NCBI RefSeq assembly: GCF_000234805.1 | Contig: NC_016645.1 | Coordinates: 1,898,391-1,962,390, forward strand | DNA: 64,000 nucleotides | Source: Pyrobaculum ferrireducens | GTDB taxonomy: Archaea; Thermoproteota; Thermoprotei; Thermoproteales; Thermoproteaceae | Reading direction: 5' to 3' | Part shown: positions 3,541 through 40,834 of the stretch, piece by piece | How positions within the stretch are numbered: position 1 is the stretch's first letter | Layout of the letters: every line of letters begins with the position of its first letter | Program-made: the position numbers and the translations under genes | Notes under the pieces: model-generated | Databases searched by the model: none | The model's input: only the letters and a program-made list of their open reading frames with translations | Told to the model about the DNA's origin: nothing

Positions 3541-4886
3541 GGGAGCCTTATCTTCACCATATGAGTCCCCCCTCTAATTCCATAAGTGGCTACGAAGGGA
3601 GCTGAGCCCCTCAGCGAGATAAGTCTCTCAAGCCCCTCCTCATAACTCTCGACAGGTACGTGTAGCGGCTCCAAGGCCCATACTATAGAGAGGGCGCGGG
3701 CAACTCTAACATTCGGCGTCCCCACGTAGACTGTGCCGAGAGGTCTAAACTTCGCTATTCTCTTCGCCAATGTGCCGCTCCTGCTGAAAACAAGTATATT
3801 GGCCCCAAGATCTCCGGCGAGCTCCACAAGGCCCTTGGCGAAACGATCCCTAGCGTCCTGTGGCTGGGCAAACTCTGTGATTTGGTACTCCACTGTCGAT
3901 AGTATTTTTGAGAGCCAGCCGGCGGCTGCCAGGGGGTATCTGCCGCTTGCAGTCTCGTTGGTAAGCCAGAGGCTATCTACGCCCATAGACGCCGTGGTGA
4001 ACACGTCGTTAACCTCAGCCCTCGTGGGAACCGGTGAATACTGCACAGAGTCTAGAAGTTGGGTAGCCACGGCAACCGGCTTGCCATGTCTAAGCGAGGT
4101 GTGTACTACCCTCCTCTGTATTGTGGGTAAGGCGTCGAGTCCATAATGCAGACCTAAATCCCCTCTAGCCACCACTACGTAATCGCTACACTCCGCGAGC
4201 TCCCCCAACTTTTCAACTGCCCCCCTAGTCTCTATCTTCACAACCAAGTGGCTGTCGAACTCAAGCTCCCTGAGGAGGGATTTTAGACGTTGCACATCTC
4301 CACAGCTCCTCACAAGGCTAGCAGAGACATAGTCGATCTCCTCTCTAACTACGGAGATTCCCTTCAATACCTCCACATCCTCCTCCGCGGGGGTGGGTAT
4401 GTCGTAATCCTTCCCCTCAACCACCACGGCCTTCCCACTAGTCACAACCCCGCTTGACTCCGCCACAGAGATCACAACGTCCTGACCCGCCTCAACAACC
4501 CTAAGCCTTAGCTTGCCATCTAGCATCAAGATGGCGTCGCCAGGCTCGACTATCTGGAAAAATGTCTTGACCGCCACGGGGACGTAGGAGCCGTCCGACT
4601 TTGAGCTAAGTCTGAAAACTACCCTATCCCCCTCTTTTATGTTAATAGGCTCTGTGTTTCCCACCCTCACGCTTGGGCCTTTGAGATCCACAATGATAGC
4701 AAGCGGTCGGTTGCGGCTCCTCTCGTAGGTCCTCACTGCGTTTATCCTTGTCTTAACCTCGTCGAGAGTGGCGTGGGCGAGGTTAATCCTGACGCCGTCT
4801 ACTAAGTCAAGGAGCTTCTCAAACTCGTCAGGCGGTAGCGAGTCGGTGGAGGGGCCTAACGTGGCGACTCTCTTGGTAAGAGTCAC
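3537..4886 (-). CDS. pyk: Pyruvate kinase
   Basis: Glycolytic enzyme converting phosphoenolpyruvate and ADP to pyruvate and ATP. The N-terminal VATLGPST motif, [12 protein letters not shown], the active-site [12 protein letters not shown] and VVARGDLGL, and VATQLLDS followed by [10 protein letters not shown] mark the barrel domain. The C-terminal domain ([18 protein letters not shown] onward) is short. At 449 residues it is a little shorter than most family members. The gene follows aCPSF1 with a four-base overlap (ATGA), so the two are one operon, an unexpected pairing of RNA processing with central metabolism. Confidence 0.95.
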
Positions 4887-6796
4887 AACGCCCTGATCCT
4901 CTCCCCCACCTTCGGTATAACAGTGGTGATTTTGTACTTCAACTCTATAGATGTGGCCAAGCTGATTATCTTAGAAGGCTCCCCATGTATAAGCACAATC
5001 TTCTTAGGCTTAGGCTCCATATGCTCGACGTATTTCATAAGCTCCCTCCTATCGCTGTGCCCCGAGAACCCAGGTATAGAAGCCACCTCCATCCTCATGT
5101 CAATTTTAGACTCGCCCCCCACCAAGCTCCTAATAACAAACTCCCTCTCCCCGTTTAGAATCCTCCGGCCCAGGGTGCCCTCCGCTTGGTACGAGACGAA
5201 GATCAGCTTATTCCTCTCGTCGTAGGCTAGCTGGGCGAAGTAGTCCAGCACAGGCCCGCCGTTTAACATGCCGTGCGGCGCTATTATAACCGCAGGCTCC
5301 TCGCTCTGCGCGATCTTAGCCACTTGGTTTATCCTATCCTCGACGCGCTTAGCGCGGTCGACGATGACGACACTCCCCGAGGTTGTGAAGGGGTTCACGC
5401 CGCCGTATATCTCCTCGGCAACCTCGGGGTTGAGGTAGTGCGGATACATGAGGTATGCGTTCAGCGTCTCCACAATCATGCCGTCTACGTAGATGGGTAC
5501 GCGGGGCACAAGCCCGCCCTCTATCATCTTGTTCAGGATGTATAGAATCTCCTGCCCCCTGCCGGTGCTGAAGGCGGGTATCAACACCTTGCCGCCCTTA
5601 GAGACTGTGTCGGAGACGTGTTTAGCTAAGGCATTTTCCGCCTCCAGCCGCGGGGGCTGCACGTCGTCCTTCCCCCCGTAGGTAGACTCCATTATGAGCA
5701 TCTCCACTCGCTTAAACTTATTCACCGCCCGGTTCAACAGCCTAGTCTTCCCGTACTTGAAATCCCCCGTGTAGAGGATGTTATACCTGCCGTTGCCTAT
5801 GTGTAGGTGGGCCATAGCCGAGCCTATTTCATGACCAGCGTCGTAGAAAGTCAGCTTAATGTCGGGAGCTATGTCAGTCACCTCTTCGTAGTCAAGCGTA
5901 ATGGTGTGGTATATCACAGCCTCTATGTCTGCCATGGAGAAGCTGGGCTGGAGGCCCTCCCGCTCCTTGAGCTCCACGTAGTCGCTGAGAAGTATAAAGG
6001 CCTGGTACTTAGTTGGGTCGGTCATGTAGACAGGCCCCCTGTAGCCGTATTTGAACAACAGCGGGAGGCACCCCACGTGGTCCATATGGGCGTGGGTGAG
6101 AACAACAGCGTCGAGCTTGTCGATATCCACCAAGTCGAGAAGCGGGAAGTCCTCGTCGTACTGCCCCGGCTTGAGGCCGCAGTCGAGAAGGACGTTGCTC
6201 TCCGTAGTGCTCACCAGAATGGCGCTCCTCCCCACCTCCATCGCTGCGCCGAGAAAAGTCACTGTTATGGGCCCCTCCTTCACCACAGGCTCCTGGTGGA
6301 TATACCTGGCGAGGTAGTCCATGAGCTCTGCCCTCTGCGCATACGCCTTGTGAAAAATCTGCCTCACACCCACGATTTCATGAGTGGGCAACTTCACCCT
6401 GTCCCTAGGCACCCCGCTCTCAATCACAGCCCTCCAGCCAGTCCTCAGAAAAATCTCACGCGCCGCGGCCTTGATATCCCTCTCACGCAGAGGACGCGCG
6501 AGGTAAATATAGACATCGCCGTTACTTTCAAAAACCACATCTTCAACGTCTTCGAGAATCTCTCTAATTACCTTAGCCGCGCTTTTCTCAGACATCCTGC
6601 TACTCGCATCGGCTCTGAGAACTACGCGCTTCTTCAACGTCTTCGCCACCTCGCCGATCATGTCTAGCACATTTTCAGCAGGCTTCTTGACATATATACA
6701 GAGGTTAGGTCCTTCAAAAGCTACCCTAACCACATCAACACCCGACAGAATAGCCTTTACCTTGTTTTCCAATTCCAAAAAAGACACAAGCGGCAT
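4883..6796 (-). CDS. aCPSF1 beta-CASP ribonuclease with KH domains
   Basis: Archaeal homologue of the CPSF73 endonuclease, known in other archaea as a ribonuclease that cuts U-rich 3' ends and acts in transcription termination. Order seen: two KH-like RNA-binding segments in the first 180 residues, a metallo-beta-lactamase core with the zinc motif THAHMDH, then the beta-CASP region and the C-terminal SGHSDR and LIHGEPSK motifs that complete the metal site. I chose ATG 6796 because a TATA-like TTTATATATG lies just upstream; the open frame runs back to 6817. The product is about 637 residues, normal for the family. It is divergent from cysS and cotranscribed with pyk. Confidence 0.95.
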   Translation of the reverse strand: MPLVSFLELENKVKAILSGVDVVRVAFEGPNLCIYVKKPAENVLDMIGEVAKTLKKRVVLRADASSRMSEKSAAKVIREILEDVEDVVFESNGDVYIYLARPLRERDIKAAAREIFLRTGWRAVIESGVPRDRVKLPTHEIVGVRQIFHKAYAQRAELMDYLARYIHQEPVVKEGPITVTFLGAAMEVGRSAILVSTTESNVLLDCGLKPGQYDEDFPLLDLVDIDKLDAVVLTHAHMDHVGCLPLLFKYGYRGPVYMTDPTKYQAFILLSDYVELKEREGLQPSFSMADIEAVIYHTITLDYEEVTDIAPDIKLTFYDAGHEIGSAMAHLHIGNGRYNILYTGDFKYGKTRLLNRAVNKFKRVEMLIMESTYGGKDDVQPPRLEAENALAKHVSDTVSKGGKVLIPAFSTGRGQEILYILNKMIEGGLVPRVPIYVDGMIVETLNAYLMYPHYLNPEVAEEIYGGVNPFTTSGSVVIVDRAKRVEDRINQVAKIAQSEEPAVIIAPHGMLNGGPVLDYFAQLAYDERNKLIFVSYQAEGTLGRRILNGEREFVIRSLVGGESKIDMRMEVASIPGFSGHSDRRELMKYVEHMEPKPKKIVLIHGEPSKIISLATSIELKYKITTVIPKVGERIRAL

Positions 6797-9055: not shown

Positions 9056-9454
9056 CTACCTCACTGTCTCCACACGTATCGAACCTCTGTAGATCCCCAT
9101 TAGTAACGCCTCCACCGGTTTGAGCCTCTTCTCCGCGGGGTCTGGCGCCAGGCCCAGCTGTTCCATAGTTACGGAGCCCAGTAGGTATATATCACGGTCG
9201 CCGAAGACCGCGGGAGTTGCAGAGGCTCTGAAGCCCTCGACATCTATCCCCACCTCGCCCACGCGCCTCTCCACAACTCTGCCGTCCGCCAGCCTCAGCC
9301 TAGCCACCCTCACCGCAGAGACCCCAAGACTCTCCAGCAACTCCGCTGGCATCACCGTATAGGTCGCTCCTGTGCCTACTAACAGGTCAACCTCCACTGC
9401 TTTTGCAGGGTTGTGGATATTCCACACCCGAGCCCTTACAGTAAACGTGCCCAC
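9056..9454 (-). CDS. Retroviral-type aspartyl-protease-like protein lacking the catalytic Asp
   Basis: Resembles the small single-domain clan AA aspartyl-protease-like proteins of Pyrobaculum and Sulfolobales. The hallmark motif, normally DTGATYT, reads LVGTGATYTVMP here (codon GGC where GAC would give Asp), so the catalytic residue is missing. The rest of the fold looks intact, including RLADGRVVERRVGEV and LLGSVTMEQLGLAPDP. The GTG start at 9454 lies about 25 bp after a TATA box (aatataa) that overlaps the stop codon of the upstream ATPase gene. Two broken relatives lie nearby (10614-10889 and 13698-13987). It may be an inactive binding version or a recent loss. Confidence 0.72.
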   Translation of the reverse strand: MGTFTVRARVWNIHNPAKAVEVDLLVGTGATYTVMPAELLESLGVSAVRVARLRLADGRVVERRVGEVGIDVEGFRASATPAVFGDRDIYLLGSVTMEQLGLAPDPAEKRLKPVEALLMGIYRGSIRVETVR

Positions 9455-9474: not shown

Positions 9475-10485
9475 TTATATTGCCTGCGCCTCCAAGGCCC
9501 TCTTAACAGCCTCTCTGTGCAGTGGTGTCTGCCACGCCACCCGCCTCCCCACGCCTATCTCCGGGTCATGCGCAGGCGGAGGGGCGTCTATCCAGAGCCG
9601 GGAGTCTCTATTCGGCAGGTGGAATATAACAAGATTCCTCTCGACGAGTTCATCTATAAGCCCCTCAGGCGCGTCGCCGCTCCAGAGGACGTCTGGATCC
9701 TCCACCGCGCGCTCCAGCCAGCTACGCCACTTCTCTACAAAGCTACTAGTGACCCTCCCCCGGGCCGAGACGTCTTCTACAACATCCGATGGATCCCACC
9801 CCGCCTCGCAGAGCTTCGCAAGAGCTGAGGGATTGCCGCCAGTTAGCCTCCACACGTTGCCAAAGGCGGGCTTCTCCCCCGGCACGCGGTCGTACAGTTG
9901 CCTAAATCCTTCCGCCGACATGTTCCACATGACCCTCAAATCTGCCCATCTGTGCCTACCGATTTCTCGCAGAGAGACGCCCTCGCTCGTCGCGGCGACC
10001 GCTACAATAACATCGTAGTCGCCGGGCGGGTATTCTATAAGCCCCAACATCCCCTTTACATAAACAGCGGCTTTCTCAAGGCCGATAGCTTGAAAAACAT
10101 CATCGGCTAAGACGGCGAGGCGTCTCCTGCCACCTCTAATTAAATCCCTCGCCAGATCTAAAGCCGCCCAAGCAACTCTGCTCCAGACGCCCTCCGACGC
10201 CTCCCGCACAAGCTCTAGAAACCTCCGCCTCACATCAGGCACCTCAACCTCTGCGAGAAATACACGCTCCACAGGATTTATGTAAATTACGTCAAATCCA
10301 AACCACTTTAACAACTCGGCGGCTTGAATAAGCCACGCAGATTTGCCGCACCCCTCAGGCCCGTAGACCAGCTGCACAAACCTAGTGCCGCGCTCCGCCC
10401 ACTCCTCCACCCACCTCAGCCCCAGCTCCCTATCCACAAACTCCACATAGACGCCCCTGGCAAACCTCAGCCTAACCCTCTCCAC
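9475..10485 (-). CDS. Archaeal P-loop ATPase (AAA/STAND-like)
   Basis: Predicted ATPase of the archaeal AAA/STAND type. A Walker A motif, GPEGCGKS, lies near residue 45, and a probable Walker B, LAVLADD, near residue 125. The C-terminal half is helical and has a GGNPSALAKLCE segment of the kind seen in sensor/winged-helix regions. I prefer GTG 10485 over 10497 because it lies about 22 bp from a TATA-like ttaatatag. The aspartyl-protease-like gene starts 20 bp after its stop. Its specific role is not known. Confidence 0.78.
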   Translation of the reverse strand: MERVRLRFARGVYVEFVDRELGLRWVEEWAERGTRFVQLVYGPEGCGKSAWLIQAAELLKWFGFDVIYINPVERVFLAEVEVPDVRRRFLELVREASEGVWSRVAWAALDLARDLIRGGRRRLAVLADDVFQAIGLEKAAVYVKGMLGLIEYPPGDYDVIVAVAATSEGVSLREIGRHRWADLRVMWNMSAEGFRQLYDRVPGEKPAFGNVWRLTGGNPSALAKLCEAGWDPSDVVEDVSARGRVTSSFVEKWRSWLERAVEDPDVLWSGDAPEGLIDELVERNLVIFHLPNRDSRLWIDAPPPAHDPEIGVGRRVAWQTPLHREAVKRALEAQAI

Positions 10486-10613
10486 ACATACACCCACAAA
10501 CAGCTATATTAACTTCAAACACCCCGGCCGCGCACCCAGCATCGCCGTTTAACACACCGCCGTAAGCTTGTCCGCAAGCCACAGCTTTTTAACCTGACGC
10601 GGAGTTGGGCTAT

Positions 10614-10889
10614 ATGATCATCAAAATTAGGGTCGGCGTATTCAACCCAGCCGCGCCAGAGCGGGTCGTTGAGGTAGAGGGCGTGGTAGACACGGGGGCT
10701 ATATATGCCCCCTTCCACTCTCCGGGCGTCCCGGGGGGCACGGGGCCCCGGATCGTCCTTGCGGACTTCCAGGGCGGGGCCGCCCGGAGGGTTGGCGCCG
10801 CCCCTTCTGCAAGAGCGTATTGGGCACGGCTTCGCCTCCCGGTGCCCTCGCGGGAGGCGGGGCGGGCGCCAGCTTGCCCATGTGCGTAG
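10614..10889 (+). pseudogene. Decayed aspartyl-protease-like gene, N-terminal part
   Basis: The first 25-30 residues look like the family's N-terminus (IKIRVGVFNPAAPE, then EGVVDTGAIYA, with the catalytic Asp kept). The rest is out of register and very GC-rich, with only traces of the family pattern (IVLADFQGGAARRVG). A TATA-like ttttaac lies about 25 bp upstream. I read it as a broken copy whose C-terminal half has been scrambled. The stretch 10890-11057 has only a short open frame ending at 11049 that I cannot assign. Confidence 0.5.
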
Positions 10890-11057
10890 AAACACACCTC
10901 CTATTTATGAATTAACGTGTGGCGTAGATGCGGCCGCGCCGATTCCGCTTTCATCAATTCTAGTTTTTGATTTGGAACTGGCCTCGGTGCCTCCCTCCCT
11001 CAGTTACAACGGCATGTGGACAGTTCTTAATTACACAGAGGCGGTGTAACATCCCTT

Positions 11058-11150
11058 CTACATTTTTCCTGACTTGATGCCGTACGTTTTTCCTGAATCA
11101 GGAAGATTGTCCGATGTTAAGTCAGGTAAAATGTAGATAGGGGAGTTGAA
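11058..11150 (+). repeat. Palindromic repeat, copy 1 (left end of the unit)
   Basis: Nested palindrome. The outer arms are CTACATTTTTCCTGACTT at 11058-11075 and AAGTCAGGTAAAATGTAG at 11119-11136, and an inner hairpin TTCCTGAATCAGGAA occupies 11090-11104. It continues with GGGGAGTTGAA. The same architecture recurs inverted at 12850-12942 and, more diverged, at 38164-38258. It contains the stop codon (11117-11119) and last codons of the tnpB-like gene. In known TnpB systems this 3' position encodes the guide RNA and transposon right end, so an RNA of that kind is possible here. Confidence 0.8.
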
Positions 11151-12313
11151 CGTAAGGCGTCACGGTGGAAAAAAGGGGGGAGTATTTCACGGAACCTCTT
11201 CTGGGCCCAGTGTATAGGCACTTCATCGCGCTGAGCCTCAAAGCCGCACTGACACCTCATCCTTCTGTTCGGTAACTCCTCCATCTTTGCTCCGCATCTG
11301 GGGCATATGGTGGAGTACAGCCTCAGCTCTGCGTAGGGCACCCCGTGCCACTCGGCAAGCTCCCTCAGCCTCTTCACAAGCCTCCCCACATTGAGATACT
11401 TCTTGACGTTTGACTTTACCCTATCGCCTTTCTTCAGCCCCCGTATAGATTCGTCCATGGGCTCGTCCACTACGACGGCGGCTCTGTACTGCACTGCGAG
11501 TTTTACAATCTTCTTAACAGCCTCAATACTCCACTGCCTCCACAGCCGCCAGAGGCGGCTCTTCGTCTCCACGGCCTTTCTGCAGTAGGCGCCGCCTTTT
11601 GTGGAGCAGAGGGAGTCCAGCCTGGCGATCTCCCTCTCCGAGCGGCCTATGCGGCCGAGATCAGGCCTCAAGATGCCCTTCTGCAACACCTTATCCTCCT
11701 CTATGGTGGCTATCACTATGCCGTTGTGGAGGGCGTTGACGTCTACTACGAGAAGCCGCTTGGGCTGATATGGCGTCACCTCTCTGTAAAAGATGAGCGC
11801 CACGTTGAAAGTGGCGATGTTGCTATTCCGCCGCTTGCCCATCCACGCTAAGGCAAACTTCAATTGGGCGCCTTCCCTTAGCCTCTCCTCAATCCATTTG
11901 ATCTCTGTTCTCCTCAGCCTAATCACAATGGTGTTGCCGCGCTCGCCACTCCACTTTCTGATTTTGATCGCCTTCTCTTTCTGTTTCCCATCTCTAGATT
12001 CGACTAAATCCACTAGGACACCGCGGCTATTGTCACCCGCGTTTTTGTCCAACCTCATCTCTGCGTCGAAGGGCAATGGCACTTTCCAGATGCCGTTTTT
12101 CAATCCGTTAACCGGAATTAGTTTCATCGCATACTTTAGCTCCTTGGCGAAGTACTTCAGCGGGTTCTGCTCTGGCATCGGCGTTTTGAATCCGCTCTTG
12201 TACCACTCCGTTGCCCATTGTCTAAACCTCTCCTGCACCTCTAGAAATCTGGCCAGCTGATGCGGCGGTATCTCCTCAACCCTCCTCTTTACCACCAGCG
12301 TCCGGTAGCCCAT
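11117..12313 (-). CDS. tnpB: TnpB-like RNA-guided nuclease (IS605/IS607 OrfB family)
   Basis: RuvC-type nuclease homologue of the TnpB family. The three catalytic acids are visible: Asp191 in VVDVNALHNG, Glu284 in VVVDEP and Asp363 in AQRDEVPIHWA. The zinc ribbon between the second and third has CPRCG and a C-x-C pair around residues 335-352. The 398-residue length is normal for TnpB. No TnpA transposase is present nearby. The final codons and stop are inside palindromic repeat copy 1. In characterised systems TnpB cuts DNA using a guide RNA that overlaps this 3' region; that activity is inferred here. The catalytic set is complete, so the protein could be active. Confidence 0.85.
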   Translation of the reverse strand: MGYRTLVVKRRVEEIPPHQLARFLEVQERFRQWATEWYKSGFKTPMPEQNPLKYFAKELKYAMKLIPVNGLKNGIWKVPLPFDAEMRLDKNAGDNSRGVLVDLVESRDGKQKEKAIKIRKWSGERGNTIVIRLRRTEIKWIEERLREGAQLKFALAWMGKRRNSNIATFNVALIFYREVTPYQPKRLLVVDVNALHNGIVIATIEEDKVLQKGILRPDLGRIGRSEREIARLDSLCSTKGGAYCRKAVETKSRLWRLWRQWSIEAVKKIVKLAVQYRAAVVVDEPMDESIRGLKKGDRVKSNVKKYLNVGRLVKRLRELAEWHGVPYAELRLYSTICPRCGAKMEELPNRRMRCQCGFEAQRDEVPIHWAQKRFREILPPFFHRDALRSTPLSTFYLT

Positions 12314-12365
12314 GTCCCGCTACGCACACCTCCACACGTGGAATTGACGTCCCACTGCTGTGGCC

Positions 12366-12815
12366 TCAGCCCGGCGGCGGTCTGTCCGTATGTACAACAG
12401 CGCAGTTTTCCGAGCGGCCGCCGGTAGTCTCTGCCAGAGGCGTAGAGGCGTTGGCCAGCGGGGCGCCCATGAGCTTTGCACACCTCGCCGCCGCCATGGG
12501 CTCCTCCACCGGCTTGTCTCGGCGTCTGGCTCTGGGGAGGAGGGGCGGCTTCCTGGGCGGCCTCCTCGGCTTCCTCTCGGCGTACGGCGGGTCGAAGACC
12601 GCGTGGAGCCACGCCTCCCACATCTCCGCCAGCCGCCTCCTCCGCGTGTAGGCCAGGATGATGAAGACGTCGGCCCTAAGCCCCCTCCTTGCCGCAGAGG
12701 AGTGCCCCCGGAGGTGCATGTAGACGCGGTCGTAGTAGCCGCCCCGCTTGCCGACGCCTACGTACGCCACCCGCCCCCCGGCCACGGCCAGGTAGACGTA
12801 GTAGACAGCCCCCAC
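12366..12815 (-). CDS. GIY-YIG-like nuclease, copy A
   Basis: A 149-residue protein whose first 80 residues look like a GIY-YIG domain: VYYVY in place of the GIY strand, AYVGVGKR in place of YIG with a following Arg, a conserved LRGHSSAARRGLRAD segment and a Glu in LAEMWEAW. The tail is Arg/Pro-rich and variable. A close relative is encoded at 38291-38752 and a 27-residue remnant at 12987-13070. The GTG at 12815 follows a TATA-like tttaaa; the palindromic repeat lies directly upstream, as it does in copy B. A homing- or transposon-type nuclease is likely but not shown. Confidence 0.65.
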   Translation of the reverse strand: MGAVYYVYLAVAGGRVAYVGVGKRGGYYDRVYMHLRGHSSAARRGLRADVFIILAYTRRRRLAEMWEAWLHAVFDPPYAERKPRRPPRKPPLLPRARRRDKPVEEPMAAARCAKLMGAPLANASTPLAETTGGRSENCAVVHTDRPPPG

Positions 12816-12849
12816 GTATACACCAGGGTTTAAAGCCAGCTACAGCTTT

Positions 12850-12942
12850 CAACTCCCCCATATACATTTTACCTGACCTTACGTCAGATGTTTTTCTTGA
12901 ATCAGGAAATACATACGATACCGAATCAGGAAAAATGTAGAG
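12850..12942 (-). repeat. Palindromic repeat, copy 2 (right end of the unit)
   Basis: Inverted copy of the repeat at 11058. On the minus strand it opens with CTACATTTTTCCTGA, holds an inner hairpin around TTCCTGATTCAAGAA, and closes with GTCAGGTAAAATGTA followed by GGGGGAGTTGAA. It lies between the TATA box of GIY-YIG copy A and the GIY-YIG remnant at 12987, so it may also work as an upstream regulatory element. Confidence 0.8.
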
Positions 12943-12986
12943 AAGGCAGTGGAAAGTCATAGCTGACCTTAAATTTTGATTTATAC

Positions 12987-13070
12987 ATGACCGTAATCCA
13001 CTACGTCTACCCCACCATAGCCAGGCGAGGGGTGGCGTATGTGAACATCGGCAAGCAAGATCGCCATTAA
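12987..13070 (+). pseudogene. GIY-YIG-like gene remnant (27 codons)
   Basis: Reads MTVIHYVYPTIARRG and then VAYVNIGKQDRH before a stop. This matches the start of the GIY-YIG-like copies A and B (YVYLAVAG, VAYVGVGKR). A TATA-like ttatac lies only a few bases upstream. The frame ends where the tldD remnant begins, so the two were probably joined by a deletion. Confidence 0.6.
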
Positions 13071-13701
13071 CCTAAACCCGGATGAGTGGCAGAGATCCTA
13101 CATTAAGCCGGGCAACCTCAAGGTCAGGATCGGCAGCGAGCTTGTCAACATCACGGACTACCCCGCCATCCCCGGCACCTACGGCTTCTATCTGGTGGAC
13201 GACGAGGGCGTCGTGGCGAGGCCTAAGCAGTTGGTGAGGAGGGGAGAGGCGGCGGAGTTCATAAGCAATAGGCAGTACGCCGCGGTCATCGGCGGCAACA
13301 GCAACGCCGGGGCCCGGGCCTCCGCCTTCGACAGAGAGCCCATACCCAGGATGTCCAACACCTACCTAGAGCCGGGGGACTGGAAGCCCGGCGAAATCAT
13401 CAGCGACACGAGGCGGGGCATCTACATGGTCTCCTACACCGAGTGGAATATAAACGACACGAGGTACTCGGGGAGGTACGGCATCCTCGAGGGCTATCTC
13501 ATTGAAAACGGCGAGGTGAAACACCCAGTAAAAGGCTTCGTGGAGGTGGACACCCCAGAGCTCTGGGGCAACGTAGACGCCGTGGGGAGAGACTTCCAGC
13601 TCTTCGTAGGGACATGCGGCAAGGGCAACCCCTCCCAGGGCATCCCAGTCACCATGGGAGGCCCCACCTTCAGAAGCAGAAGCCTCAGGGTGGTGACATG
13701 A
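13045..13701 (+). pseudogene. tldD: TldD-family metalloprotease, C-terminal half only
   Basis: The translated frame matches the C-terminal domain of TldD/PmbA-type metalloproteases: the stretch around MSNTYLEPGDWKPGEIISDT, then SYTEWNINDTRYSGRYGILEGYLIENG, ALWG-like ELWGNVDAVGRD, and the terminal GTCGKGNPSQGIPV. The N-terminal half with the HExxxH zinc motif is absent; an in-frame TGA at 13042 closes the frame and there is no good start codon. It is therefore a truncated gene, cut at its junction with the GIY-YIG remnant. Confidence 0.8.
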
Positions 13702-13987
13702 TACTCAAAATCCTCGCAGGCAGGCTAGACGAGGCCACCGTGGTGAGGAGAGACGTGCTCGAGTCGCTCGGCGTAAAGCCATTGAGGAGGCGTAGATTCA
13801 AGGCATTCGGCGGCTACGTGGAGAGGGACGTGGGAGAGGCCGGCCCCGTCTTAATGGGCGAGAGGCGGGGGTGCCCGTGATATTCGGAGAGGCTGACGTC
13901 GTCGGGATGACGGCGCTTGAGATCTTCGGCCTAGAGGTCGACCCCGTGAGGGGGACTCTTAAAGAGGCCGAGTTGTTGCTCCTCTAG
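13698..13987 (+). pseudogene. Frameshifted aspartyl-protease-like gene, C-terminal part
   Basis: From ATG 13698 (overlapping the tldD stop) the frame gives RRDVLESLGVKPLRRRRF and YVERDVGEAG, then stops at 13880. The family sequence continues in another frame with VPVIFGEADVVGMTALEIFGLEVDP to a stop at 13985-13987. The DTGAT segment is missing; only traces (LDEATVV) remain. It is a pseudogene with one frameshift and an N-terminal deletion. Its last bases overlap the convergent surface-protease gene. Confidence 0.75.
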
Positions 13988-16900
13988 ACAAACCTGCGGA
14001 CAAAGGCCAGGAAGAGGCCTCCCGCTATTCCTAGTACAAGGGGCTCTATCTGCCTCAGCGCCTCGGCCGCCGCGACGTTGGGACCCCTCCCGGCGGCTAG
14101 GTCTCTCTCCACGAGGTATCTAGCCAGTAGAGCCATAGGCGTCGGGGCGCCCGTGTAGAGCCTCGATATCTGATCGACGAGGCCCCAGTCGCCGGTGGCG
14201 GCGGCCCTCTCCATTAGGTACTGGAAATAGGGCCGAGCCTCAGGCGGCAGAAGGCCGAGGGTTTTATTCGCCGCGGTGTAGCTCCCCGGCGGCGCGGCGT
14301 AGCCGACGAAGACGGACCTGTTCACAACGCCCATGTACTCAACGGTGATGTTGTAGCTAACGCGGCCCAGCCTGTCGAAGTCGCCGATCACCTCGACGCG
14401 CGCAGGTACCTGCACCCCGCCCAGCAGAGCGTATGCAGAGAAGCCCCGCGGGGGAAACACGGGTAGGCCCCTTATGGTGCCCAGCCTAGTGTAGTTAACC
14501 CCCACGGTGAGCGAAGCCCACCGCACAGACGCAGACGCCTTAGTTGTATTTGTGTATGCTGTGAAGACGGCGGCGCACGGCCTCGCGGAGCTGTACTGAA
14601 TAGTTTGGTTAAGCCTCACAACCCCTTTGTACACCCCGCAGCCGGAAACACTGAGAAGCACAGACGTGTCTATACTGGGGTACACATGGCCTATCACAGT
14701 GATGTTTACCGGCGCGCCAACCGGCGCCAGAGAGGGCGCCGAGATGGTGACGTTGACTCGGTAAACCAGCAAGGTAGTGTAATTCACATAGGGGCCTAGG
14801 GATATAGAGACGTTGTAGAAGCCAGGTGAGCTAACGCCGGGAACCGCCAGAGAAAATTCCTGGGTTCCGGGACCCACGGAGACGAGCTTAGACACGTTTA
14901 GCGATGTGTTGAGAGGGGCATCTATATACAAATTCTCGGGGGCTCTAATAGTAACGTTGAGAACAAAGGGCGTGCCGACCTCCGCCGCGACCGGTCGGGC
15001 CAATATGCCCAGCTGAGGCCTCCTAATTTGAACCACGCCAAAGCCGTAGTTAATCACAGCTACTCCATTAGAAACCTCAACCTCCTCTATAAATTCTGCA
15101 CTACCAGACACCTCTTTATTGAAGATGATGTATGTGTAGTTCTGCGTAGTGACTCTAAGCAAGACAGACGCCGCCTCTCTGCTACCGGATATACGCCACT
15201 GTAGTAATGTTGCATTAACCGCAGGCGGGGGGACGTGCAGATGCTTGTCAAAGGTGCCGAACGAGGTCACAAAGCTGAAAGAAATGTCGGTGCTGTACCG
15301 CGCCCTAGCCGAGATAACTGTCGAATTAGAGGCGCAACCACCCTTCGCCACTTTCAGCGTTACGTCTGTGCCGTTCACCCTAACCACGTAGAGGGCATCA
15401 ACCGAGGGGTTGCACACATCCACGACAACCTTGAAAAGACCTCTAAACTCGCTTGGGGTAACCACGCCGTTAATAAGCTCAACCGAAAGTCTAGGCCTCG
15501 GCAACTCAACATAAGCCGACTTCTCCTCACCAGCCACGGCATATCTAATAACAACGACGTCGCTGTAGGTGTAGTTCAGAAATATGTAACCGCCATCAAA
15601 ACGCGCCTCGCCCAACGGCCTAGGGTCAAGAAATTTAATTGGTATATCATCTCTGACCTCCATGTCAAACTTAACCATAGCCCATATAGACGCCACGCCT
15701 CCCCTAACCACAACCCTCACAAGCTCCAAGGTTGCGTTAACCATAGGCACGTCAATCGGAAACTCTCTACGCAACATGCCAACAGAGACAGACACGGTAG
15801 CCTTGGCTCCAGGTCTAAGCGTTATTTCCGTTACGTAAGGCCCGCCCGTGTAGTTCCCTCTTTTTTCTCTTCCGTCTGCGGTGATAGAAACTGTGCCCCT
15901 AAACCTAGCCCATGGAGGGACGCCGCTTAAAGTGATATTGACCTGGTACACCACCGACTCATTTTCAAATCTCCGCGGTAGGAAAGCGACGTCTAGAACA
16001 GGCCTAGGCACGTTCACCACCGCCGCCACATAGCCCCTGTAGCTAAGGCTGACATTCGCCGGTAGCTCCGCCACGTCGTATAGAGACTCCTCAGATCCGT
16101 ATTTCACAAGCAAGACGCCCCTCCCCTTGTCGAGGTCGTAATCCAGCGAGTAAGCCGGTTGAGACAACTGTACTGCGCCCACCACCTCCCCGCAACGGAC
16201 CGCGACGAACCCCGCGGGATCCGCCACGGCTCTAAACGGCACCCCAGCGACGATGGACGTGTTCCTCGGCACGTAGATCTCCACAGGTCTTATCTCCACG
16301 CCGTGGCCCGAGCCGTTTAAGACGCAACGCACGTCTATCGGATTGGGGTTAACCACGGTTACGTTCAACACCCCGTAGCCGCCTCTGCCAAGGTACAGCG
16401 TCTTTGGGGAAACCTCCAAGCCGAACTCCGTGAGGTTTAGGTAGACATAGGCCCACGAGCCGTTGTACTCCACCCTAAGGACATATGGCCTCAACCCGCC
16501 GGAGAAGGTGTAGCTAGCGAACCCCTCTCTGAAGTCGACAACTGTGCCGTTTATCCTCCCAGCCCCAACCGCCCTCTGGAAGCCGTATTCTGCATATATC
16601 CTCACGGTGACGTTGCCACTGTAGTAGACACCGTCCACCGCCCTGGCCTTGAGGACGCTGTAGTAAAAAGCCACCCTCAGCCTGGCGGTGTTGCTGGAAT
16701 TGTTCACAAGGGCCACCAGAAGCGTGCCGTTCGCCAGAGATACGTCGCGGCCCAGCGCCACGTTAGACACGACGCTCCCCGCCCCCCCGCCGGAGATCTC
16801 AATCCTCAGAAAGCCGCCGGGAGGCGCCGATATGTTGTAATAAACGGCGCTGTACCCCTCGACATCGGGGTAGTCATACGCCGCCCCCGGCCCCACCTCA

Positions 16901-37790: not shown

Positions 37791-37907
37791 GCCCCGGCGA
37801 AGAATCGGGGAGCCGCGGCTTGCCGGCCGCTCCAACCGGTAGTCTAGCCCGGTCAAGGATGTGGGCCTTTCGAGCCCGTGACCCGGGTTCAAATCCCGGC
37901 CGGGGCA
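37791..37907 (+). tRNA. tRNA-Glu(UUC) with a 42-nt intron in the acceptor stem
   Basis: The 5' exon is GCCCCGG (37791-37797). The rest of the tRNA starts with TAGTCTAGCCCGG at 37840. The anticodon loop is CTTTCGA (anticodon TTC), the T arm is CCGGG-TTCAAAT-CCCGG, and the 3' acceptor strand CCGGGGC (37900-37906) pairs fully with GCCCCGG. Discriminator A; no CCA encoded. The 42 nt between are an intron with its own hairpin (GGAGC pairs with GCTCC). CCGG occurs at both exon edges, so the exact cut is ambiguous by up to four bases. A TATA box, tataaaa, lies about 25 bp upstream. Confidence 0.85.
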
Positions 37908-38163: not shown

Positions 38164-38258
38164 TAATATGTTTTTCCCGAGTCGACGCCGTACAATCTCC
38201 CTGAATCGAGAAGAATATCCGACTTCGAGTCGTGAAGAGCGTAGAGGTGGGAGCTGAA
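38164..38258 (+). repeat. Palindromic repeat, copy 3
   Basis: A diverged copy of the repeats at 11058 and 12850. It keeps TTTTTCCCGA, GCCGTAC, the inner CCCTGAATCGAG, a right arm AGTCGTGAAGAGCGTAGA and the GGGAGCTGAA tail, then the GTAGCTGGCTTTAAA also found before GIY-YIG copy A. It lies directly upstream of GIY-YIG copy B in the same relative orientation as copy 2 to copy A. No tnpB-like gene is present at this locus. Confidence 0.7.
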
Positions 38259-38290
38259 TGCCGTAGCTGGCTTTAAAGCTCTTCACTGAT

Positions 38291-38752
38291 GTGGCTGTTG
38301 TCCACTCCGCCAACCTGGCTCTGGCCGGGAGATGGGTGGCGTATGTGGGGGTGGGGAGGCGCGGCGGCCGCTACGACCACATATACATGTACATGAGTGG
38401 CTACTCCTCAGTCGCCAGACGCGGCTTGAGGGCAGATGCGTTTGTCTATCTGGCCTACACCCGCAATAAGTTGCTGGCGGAGATATGGGAGGCGTGGTTC
38501 TACACGGTTTTCAAACCTCCGTACACCAGGCGGGGGCCCCGGGCCATGCCGAGAGGCCTCTACGCGGAGAGATATGCGTCGGTGGAGGAGCCAGTGGCAA
38601 TGGCGAGACACGCCGAGGTGGTCAGCCCCTCATCGGTTGGCGCCTCTACGCGTCTAACTGAGATTATTGACGGTTGTGCAGAAAAACGCGTAGCTGTGGT
38701 ACATGTTGAGAAGCCGCCTCCCACAGCCTGCGGCGTAGCAGAGGGGGCTTAA
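38291..38752 (+). CDS. GIY-YIG-like nuclease, copy B
   Basis: A 153-residue paralogue of the protein encoded at 12366-12815. The strongest agreement is over VAYVGVGRRGG, ARRGLRADAFVYLAYTR and LAEIWEAW, with a weaker C-terminal tail (SVEEPVAMARH, VVHVEKPPP). The first strand is VVHSANLALAG, so the aromatic GIY residues are less well kept than in copy A, and catalysis is uncertain. GTG start 15-20 bp after ctttaaa; palindromic repeat upstream. The PaREP2-like gene follows by 31 bp. Confidence 0.62.
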   Translation: MAVVHSANLALAGRWVAYVGVGRRGGRYDHIYMYMSGYSSVARRGLRADAFVYLAYTRNKLLAEIWEAWFYTVFKPPYTRRGPRAMPRGLYAERYASVEEPVAMARHAEVVSPSSVGASTRLTEIIDGCAEKRVAVVHVEKPPPTACGVAEGA

Positions 38753-40331: not shown

Positions 40332-40454
40332 ATGTGGGCAGTCCCAGCGTGGGCCGCCGCCGTCCTCGCAGTAGCCTACTATATCGACAGGTCCGCAACC
40401 GAGGGTGGGCTGGCGAAATGTGCTATCTCTGTACAGCAGCATAGACGCCGGTGA
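40332..40454 (+). CDS. Possible small protein, 40 residues
   Basis: Starts MWAVPAWAAAVLAVAYYIDR, a single membrane-like segment followed by a short basic tail. TATA-like stretches (tttaaaaag, ctatttaac) lie upstream. There are no relatives I can name, so this is tentative. Confidence 0.3.
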   Translation: MWAVPAWAAAVLAVAYYIDRSATEGGLAKCAISVQQHRRR

Positions 40455-40690
40455 ACGGAGCGCATCGCGTAATGCGGCGGCGCTTTTTGGTATTAGAAAC
40501 TTTTATAGCCACTCCATGGACTGTAGAGTGTGGCTGTAGTAAAAACCCACATCTTTTTCTTTTCACTCTCTTTTACGTCTCCATTCTGTTGTTGATAACA
40601 CTAATACTGTATCACCTATTAACAGAGGGTTTGGAAAGTACTCTAATAAGTCTGCTCATAGTGGCAAAGTCTGTGGCAGTCTCCTTCTAA
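40451..40690 (+). CDS. Possible small membrane protein
   Basis: A 79-codon frame overlapping the end of the previous one (GTGA). The second half is strongly hydrophobic (FLFTLFYVSILLLITLILYHLL, then LISLLIVAKSVAVSF), which is unusual for chance frames; the first half is not convincing. It could be a remnant with a lost start. Confidence 0.3.
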   Translation: MNGAHRVMRRRFLVLETFIATPWTVECGCSKNPHLFLFTLFYVSILLLITLILYHLLTEGLESTLISLLIVAKSVAVSF

Positions 40691-40693
40691 GCT

Positions 40694-40834
40694 TTACTTG
40701 CCATTTTTGCAGTAAACCCCCAGTGGGTTGCTGGAGAGCAAAGAGGCGACCTCTTTGATAGCTACTTTGGCGTCGTTTACAGCTAGATGCGCCCAGAACT
40801 CCGAGTTGTCTATGCCGTGAAAGGTTGGGGGACG
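40694..40834 (-). pseudogene. Truncated gene, C-terminal 46 codons
   Basis: The minus strand gives a plausible protein end without a start codon: PTFHGIDNSEFWAHLAV, then AIKEVASLLSSNPLG and a stop. The frame comes out of a tRNA-like fragment, so the gene was cut there. I cannot name the family. Confidence 0.35.

Follow-up and report, generated by a model that had tools for sequence, protein, structure and literature searches.

TnpB is usually regarded as a helper of the transposase TnpA: it cuts the vacated site, and repair restores the element. The element described here lies in 64,000 nucleotides of Pyrobaculum ferrireducens DNA (contig NC_016645.1, positions 1,898,391 to 1,962,390; hereafter the window) and carries a TnpB-like and a GIY-YIG-like gene. 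With the IS200/IS605 and the IS1341-type (TnpB-only) elements it has in common a TnpB that possesses RuvC motifs and a zinc ribbon, an apparently structured right-end RNA that stops at the border, subterminal palindromes and a short target-border motif. It differs from them in that no Y1 TnpA was found in the element or its genome and a GIY-YIG gene has been added, and its family has inverted RNA blocks at both ends, duplications of 7-11 bp and one variable end. IS200/IS605 elements have two defined ends and make no target duplication, in contrast to the variable ends and to the insertions L015, L085 and L087 described below. The TnpB of ISDra2 uses an RNA composed of the right end and about 16 nt of flank, and cuts in a staggered fashion (PMC8612924). 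Judged by sequence, fold and position, the structured RNA at the border near tnpB would be a feature shared with the TnpB-omegaRNA (OMEGA) systems.

Penelope-like elements of eukaryotes combine inverted terminal repeats and palindromes with a GIY-YIG enzyme, are truncated at the 5' side and make duplications of 9-10 bp (PMC3846280). The window element resembles them in a putative GIY-YIG nuclease, inverted terminal repeats, palindromes, duplications of about 10 bp and truncated copies, but it is archaeal, carries TnpB and has no reverse transcriptase. Among Fanzor elements, CRe-1/2/3 of Fanzor1 are linked to Helitron2, and the Mariner PGv-1 has a GIY-YIG open reading frame (ORF) (PMC3627910). 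Fanzor elements share with the window element a TnpB-family protein, variable (7-19 bp) duplications with 5' truncation and, in one case, an adjacent GIY-YIG gene (PMC3627910), but they are eukaryotic or viral and tied to Helitron or Mariner machinery, none of which was seen in the window element. Both likenesses are analogies and do not indicate membership. DDE-type inverted-repeat transposons differ from the window element, whose second end is variable and among whose ORFs no DDE transposase was recognised. PaREP2b, a putative transposon in Pyrobaculum (PMC3558965), is likewise a repeated gene family of the genus, but it has no TnpB and is inserted at a tRNA gene.

We consider it moderately probable that the window element, as a transposon belonging to the TnpB superfamily, lacks TnpA, carries a GIY-YIG endonuclease and moves by break-and-copy insertion through its own nucleases. 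It would represent a new variant in that superfamily, with a GIY-YIG partner but no TnpA, probable guide-RNA genes as terminal repeats and one-ended, copy-type insertion; literature searches found no description of TnpB together with GIY-YIG in Pyrobaculum.

The insertion and its empty sites

The insertion (3,030 bp; Table 1) interrupts a retropepsin-like gene. Its junctions were read against the intact gene of a sister Pyrobaculum genome, G009, in which they fall at 1709|1708 of locus L225; positions 10274-10705 and 13736-14834 align by BLAST to the uninterrupted stretch L225 2145-600. The interrupted gene is the second of two adjacent retropepsin-like (aspartyl protease) genes in the window (9056-9454 and 10605-13987).

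The arrangement palindrome - GIY - TnpB - palindrome occurs six times in two genomes, twice in the genome of the window (G000) and four times in G009. Comparison of the flanks with the orthologous loci of sister genomes revealed a site without the unit for 6/6 units, the G009 counterpart of L017 being itself altered at the junction. The unit is a real mobile element. The six units occupy six different host loci, not the one conserved allelic site expected of a homing endonuclease.

A sequence-only reading of this stretch had proposed that the two genes form a mobile unit enclosed by facing 93-bp inverted repeats and act together in a transposon or decoy system. Mobility of the pair was borne out by the empty sites, a check that this reading had itself named, whereas the pair is not obligatory and nothing was found in favour of a decoy function. 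GIY-YIG occurs alone in L086 and is paired in L018 and L093 with a large ORF (440-468 aa) other than TnpB, and most relatives have TnpB without GIY-YIG, G003, a genome lacking the GIY gene, having 82 TnpB matches. The large ORF had no Pfam match; we presume that it is PaREP2b-like.

Table 1. Features of the insertion, copies of the unit and matched empty sites (window coordinates unless a genome is named)
Feature	Location	Strand	Basis or remark	Empty site
Whole insertion	10706..13735		BLAST flanks contiguous in L225; junction reading	
Retropepsin-like gene, 5' part (..VVDTGAIY)	10605..10705	+	Comparison with intact G009 gene	
Alpha, fixed terminal block; outer end TGCCCCCTTCCACTCTCCGGGCGTC	10706..11048 (approximate)	-	Aligned with 16 other copies; fixed border against empty sites	
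Candidate TnpB guide RNA (omegaRNA), GC-rich, structured, ends at element/target border	10706..10886	-	Covariance model, covariation	
Conserved TTAATTCATAAATA box upstream of RNA	10904..10917	-	Near-invariant in 12 copies	
Palindromic repeat R1	11053..11153		Inverted-copy match, BLAST family	
tnpB-like gene, 398 aa	11117..12313	-	PF07282; purifying selection	
GIY-YIG-like endonuclease gene, 149 aa	12366..12815	-	Motifs and relatives; dN/dS	
Palindromic repeat R2, directly upstream of GIY-YIG gene	12848..12942		Repeat comparison	
Remnant of second, divergent GIY-YIG 5' region, inverted, with short spacer	12943..13095	+	Inverted repeat I1; 89% to L017 5635-5888	
Captured tldD/pmbA-type gene fragment, variable end	13096..13735	+	97% to intact tldD L224, 96% to L186	
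Retropepsin-like gene, 3' part (VVRRDVLESLGV..)	13736..13987	+	Comparison with intact G009 gene	
Unit copy, window	G000	-	GIY and TnpB between palindromes	
Unit copy L017	G000, 587-589 kb		GIY frame holds a stop	L175 (and L179)
Unit copy L083	G009, 45 kb			L176
Unit copy L084	G009, 1039 kb			L102
Unit copy L085	G009, 1240 kb			L181
Unit copy L087	G009 contig 2, 184 kb			L174
GIY fragment L015				L177

The palindromic repeats are internal

The facing repeats exist where they had been proposed: 11057-11150 and 12848-12941 are inverted copies of 94 nt, 80% complementary. Each repeat is in turn a long palindrome, with arms such as 11057-11096 and 11098-11137, so that the two also align in direct orientation (72%). 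Among 19 Thermoproteaceae genomes, BLAST matches to the repeat numbered 14 in G000, 29 in G009 and 3 in G016, a member of another genus of the family, and there were none in the other 16; the repeats are a dispersed family, not chance copies. An R2-type palindrome stands directly upstream of GIY-YIG in all examined copies of these three genomes, none was seen upstream of the divergent copy of genome G001, and GIY-less elements have a similar palindrome ahead of tnpB. The repeats were rejected as borders of the element, being internal to the insertion with a further block, alpha, outside them. The GIY-less TnpB element L096 (G001) is also flanked by long inverted repeats, at 2087-2289 and 3664-3862 (one of 104 nt at 86%, and others of 62 and 32 nt).

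The two ends of the insertions and the target motif

Every fixed border is the outer end of alpha, a block of about 335 bp (consensus TRCCCCCTTTCTNCTCTCCGGGCGTC) that was found only in G000, G009 and G016, save for a 34-35-bp match in G001. In the window copy and in L017, L083 and L084 it is the alpha next to TnpB that is fixed. In the fuller elements L084 and L087 alpha is present at both ends in inverted orientation, and we take the full form to be alpha - palindrome - GIY-YIG - TnpB - palindrome - inverted alpha.

The position of the other end varies. It lies inside the GIY ORF in L015, just beyond the palindrome in L083 and L085, within the second alpha in L084 and L087, and within captured host DNA in the window and L017. 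In the window copy the captured DNA is a 640-bp stretch of tldD, 97% identical to the intact gene of the same genome and joined to the host at a 9-bp microhomology (CCGTGGTGA); L017 has the same junction between GIY remnant and tldD and ends at a 9-bp microhomology of its own (CATAAAGCC). For the GIY-less TnpB elements of G003 a variable 5' end was not established as a general rule, their upstream similarity mostly stopping near one point.

Target duplications of 7-11 bp were observed in three insertions, GACTTTATTTA in L015, TACCCCT in L085 and about CGGGCCCCCA in L087, and each of these sequences is single in the respective empty site. L015 moved as an alpha-palindrome-GIY fragment with a target duplication of its own. 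In the empty sites the fixed end adjoins GGNN|T. With the flank adjoining alpha oriented to the right, the seven sites read GGTG, GGGG, GGTA, GGCG, GCTT, GGCC and GGCG before the junction, with G at -4 in 7/7, G at -3 in 6/7 and T at +1 in 6/7; none of 20,000 sets drawn at random from these loci had such an adjacent G pair.

Alpha as a candidate guide RNA

Read outward, alpha contains the TTAATTCATAAATA box, a possible archaeal TATA element with a putative promoter role, followed by about 180-200 nt of GC-rich sequence up to the border. In most copies the terminal 85 nt or so fold into a three-way junction and a tail, AGNAGAAAGGGGGYA, and the fold stops exactly at the border between element and target. 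In nine copies 90% of the pair cells were standard, as against 31-53% in slid versions, and six pairs were changed on both sides. The folding energy of single sequences was no more than modestly better than that of shuffled ones (z -1.4 to -1.5), therefore the case for a guide RNA rests on covariation and position. No Rfam match was obtained for the RNA. The alternative that alpha is a protein-coding gene (its inner end reads ..SFNYHGAWIVLNYAEAA and a stop) was rejected, as what is conserved resembles an RNA and the reading frames differ from copy to copy.

A covariance model of alpha, which hit the window at 10706-10815(-), detected the same RNA 3' of tnpB in the GIY-less elements L099 (1e-17), L098, L096, L100 and L042, with weaker hits in several elements of G003. 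In genomes G001 and G005, GIY-less elements have sequence resembling the outer portion of alpha downstream of their tnpB. Because other Thermoproteaceae thus have the same RNA behind tnpB in elements without GIY-YIG, the alpha RNA is very probably the guide RNA of TnpB, in agreement with the earlier expectation of guide RNAs at the element's end. By analogy, each alpha is probably a stand-alone guide-RNA gene, the guide being the adjoining host flank. The predicted guide of the window copy is the flank at 10705 and below, 5'-TATATAGCCCCCGTGTCTACC, which would be a near-perfect match to the empty allele of G009, and GGNN is the predicted target-adjacent motif (TAM) of this TnpB.

Many GIY-less TnpB elements of G003 (L204-L223) have GC-rich, RNA-like 3' ends that terminate in AAGGGGGCA or a like sequence, and, upstream, palindromes of the form CTTTCARCTCC..CCTGAC/GTCAGG..GGAGTTGAAAG; this genome is without Y1 TnpA. 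In L141 an alpha copy at 6404-6602 stands beside a region (5365-6080) in which recurring translations of the FQLSFDFR type point to a possible CRISPR array.

The two nuclease genes

The TnpB-like protein matches PF07282 above the cut-off (E=6.6e-7), and the RuvC acids D191, D283 and D363, which the sequence-only reading had already recognised, are invariant in seven aligned proteins, as are the zinc-ribbon cysteines. For the GIY-YIG-like protein of the window itself no significant Pfam match was obtained; PF01541 matches 2/9 members of its family (best 7.8e-5), and relatives 36-76% identical to it retain the motif residues. PDB sequence searches gave no match, pattern scans of genome-contig and viral-contig collections revealed no relatives elsewhere, and the family profile matches only 4/398 genomes of the phylum. 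Both genes are under purifying selection, with dN/dS of 0.11-0.19 for TnpB (five copies) and 0.10-0.32 for GIY-YIG (first 90 aa only). The precise role given below to the GIY-YIG enzyme is inferred.

A break-and-copy model and competing explanations

Y1 transposase (PF01797) was found in 0/19 Thermoproteaceae genomes and reverse transcriptase (PF00078) also in 0/19, the control genomes being positive in both searches; the element itself contains no reverse transcriptase. We propose that one or both of the element's nucleases (GIY-YIG, TnpB) would make a staggered break at a GGNN|T site, that the target end would be joined at the alpha terminus, and that the element would be copied inward by repair synthesis. 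The copy would extend to the point where synthesis stops or changes over to the target, the second end being made by end joining or by a template switch at microhomology. TnpB with its guide RNA may then cut empty alleles, and repair would copy the element back in. Break-and-copy insertion would in this way account for the duplications of 7-11 bp, the truncations, the captured tldD DNA and the single fixed end. Here we infer which nuclease breaks the target, the mechanism of copying and the function of the guide. GIY-YIG, which distinguishes this subfamily, is a candidate for the target-opening nuclease; TnpB or an unrecognised recombinase is also possible, because TnpB elements of the relatives multiply without GIY-YIG. 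That TnpB and/or GIY-YIG replace a transposase altogether, in a transposon with guide-RNA genes as terminal repeats that spreads by nuclease breaks and copying repair, is put forward more tentatively, as a possibility that we regard as somewhat doubtful.

TnpB elements multiply here in an archaeal family in which no Y1 TnpA was detected. One TnpB subfamily of this family has gained a second nuclease and probable guide-RNA genes at both ends, and its insertions bear the marks expected of break-and-copy. The element thus opens to test the question whether RNA-guided nucleases are able to mobilise elements unaided. For a hyperthermophilic TnpB it also supplies predictions of the guide RNA, the guide sequences and the TAM.

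Several observations speak against break-and-copy insertion by the element's own nucleases. The window and L084 are among several insertions without target duplication, and L083 was inserted with a target deletion of about 1.08 kb. In L085, L087 and L015 the fixed alpha is on the GIY side, without tnpB reading into it. Of the seven sites used for the target motif, the empty site of L017 was taken from G006, a genome that is less closely related. All 7/7 aligned TnpB proteins have Asp as middle RuvC acid instead of the usual Glu, a conservative change. The AlphaFold model of the GIY-YIG protein is poor (pLDDT 41), leaving the fold putative, and the numerous TnpB elements in GIY-less genomes indicate that GIY-YIG is dispensable for TnpB elements generally. 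A serine recombinase, the TnpA of the IS607 family, was not recognised among the ORFs of the element, no genome-wide search for one having been made.

The best surviving alternative, unlikely in our judgement, is that some unrecognised transposase or recombinase acts in trans on a TnpB-only element, with GIY-YIG as cargo. GIY-less TnpB elements are common in the family and must have some mover, and the subterminal palindromes and fixed right end resemble the IS200/IS605 layout; however, the Y1 search was negative in every genome, target duplications and variable second ends would be unexpected for IS200/IS605, and GIY-YIG is conserved under selection. Slightly less probable still is that GIY-YIG and its palindrome form a separate selfish, homing-type unit, which invades TnpB elements and uses the palindrome as recognition site. 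This would suit the constant association of GIY-YIG with the palindrome in G000, G009 and G016 and its varied partners (TnpB in six units, the large ORF in L018/L093, none in L086), but not the alpha end common to GIY and TnpB copies, the movement of L015 together with alpha, or the similar palindrome before tnpB in GIY-less elements.

Target-primed reverse transcription was considered on account of the strikingly similar architecture and insertion marks of Penelope-like elements (PMC3846280). Retroposition is largely refuted by the missing reverse transcriptase, and since either alpha can be the fixed end, both strands would be needed as RNA; we hold it to be very improbable. That there is no mobile unit, just ordinary genes between dispersed repeats, has no supporting point and is refuted by the orthologous empty sites.

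Other loci with GIY-YIG copies

In L018 (1300-3950) and L093 (900-3830) the PaREP2b-like ORF, as we presume it to be, GIY-YIG, palindrome and alpha lie beside an apparently intron-bearing tRNA gene (TGT-like anticodon, probably Thr), which was not called by ARAGORN. The 3' half of the tRNA is repeated at the far end, and the arrangement, seen in two genera, has the appearance of a genomic island that entered at the tRNA gene. The window holds a second, divergent copy of palindrome and GIY-YIG at 38171-38752, about 265 bp downstream of tRNA-Glu (37834-37906); it is 99% identical to its G009 orthologue (L088/L226) and therefore appears to be old and vertically inherited. Further on, about 340 bp of the window (40403-40747) are replaced in G009 by an unrelated stretch of about 180 bp, within DNA that is otherwise 96-97% identical.
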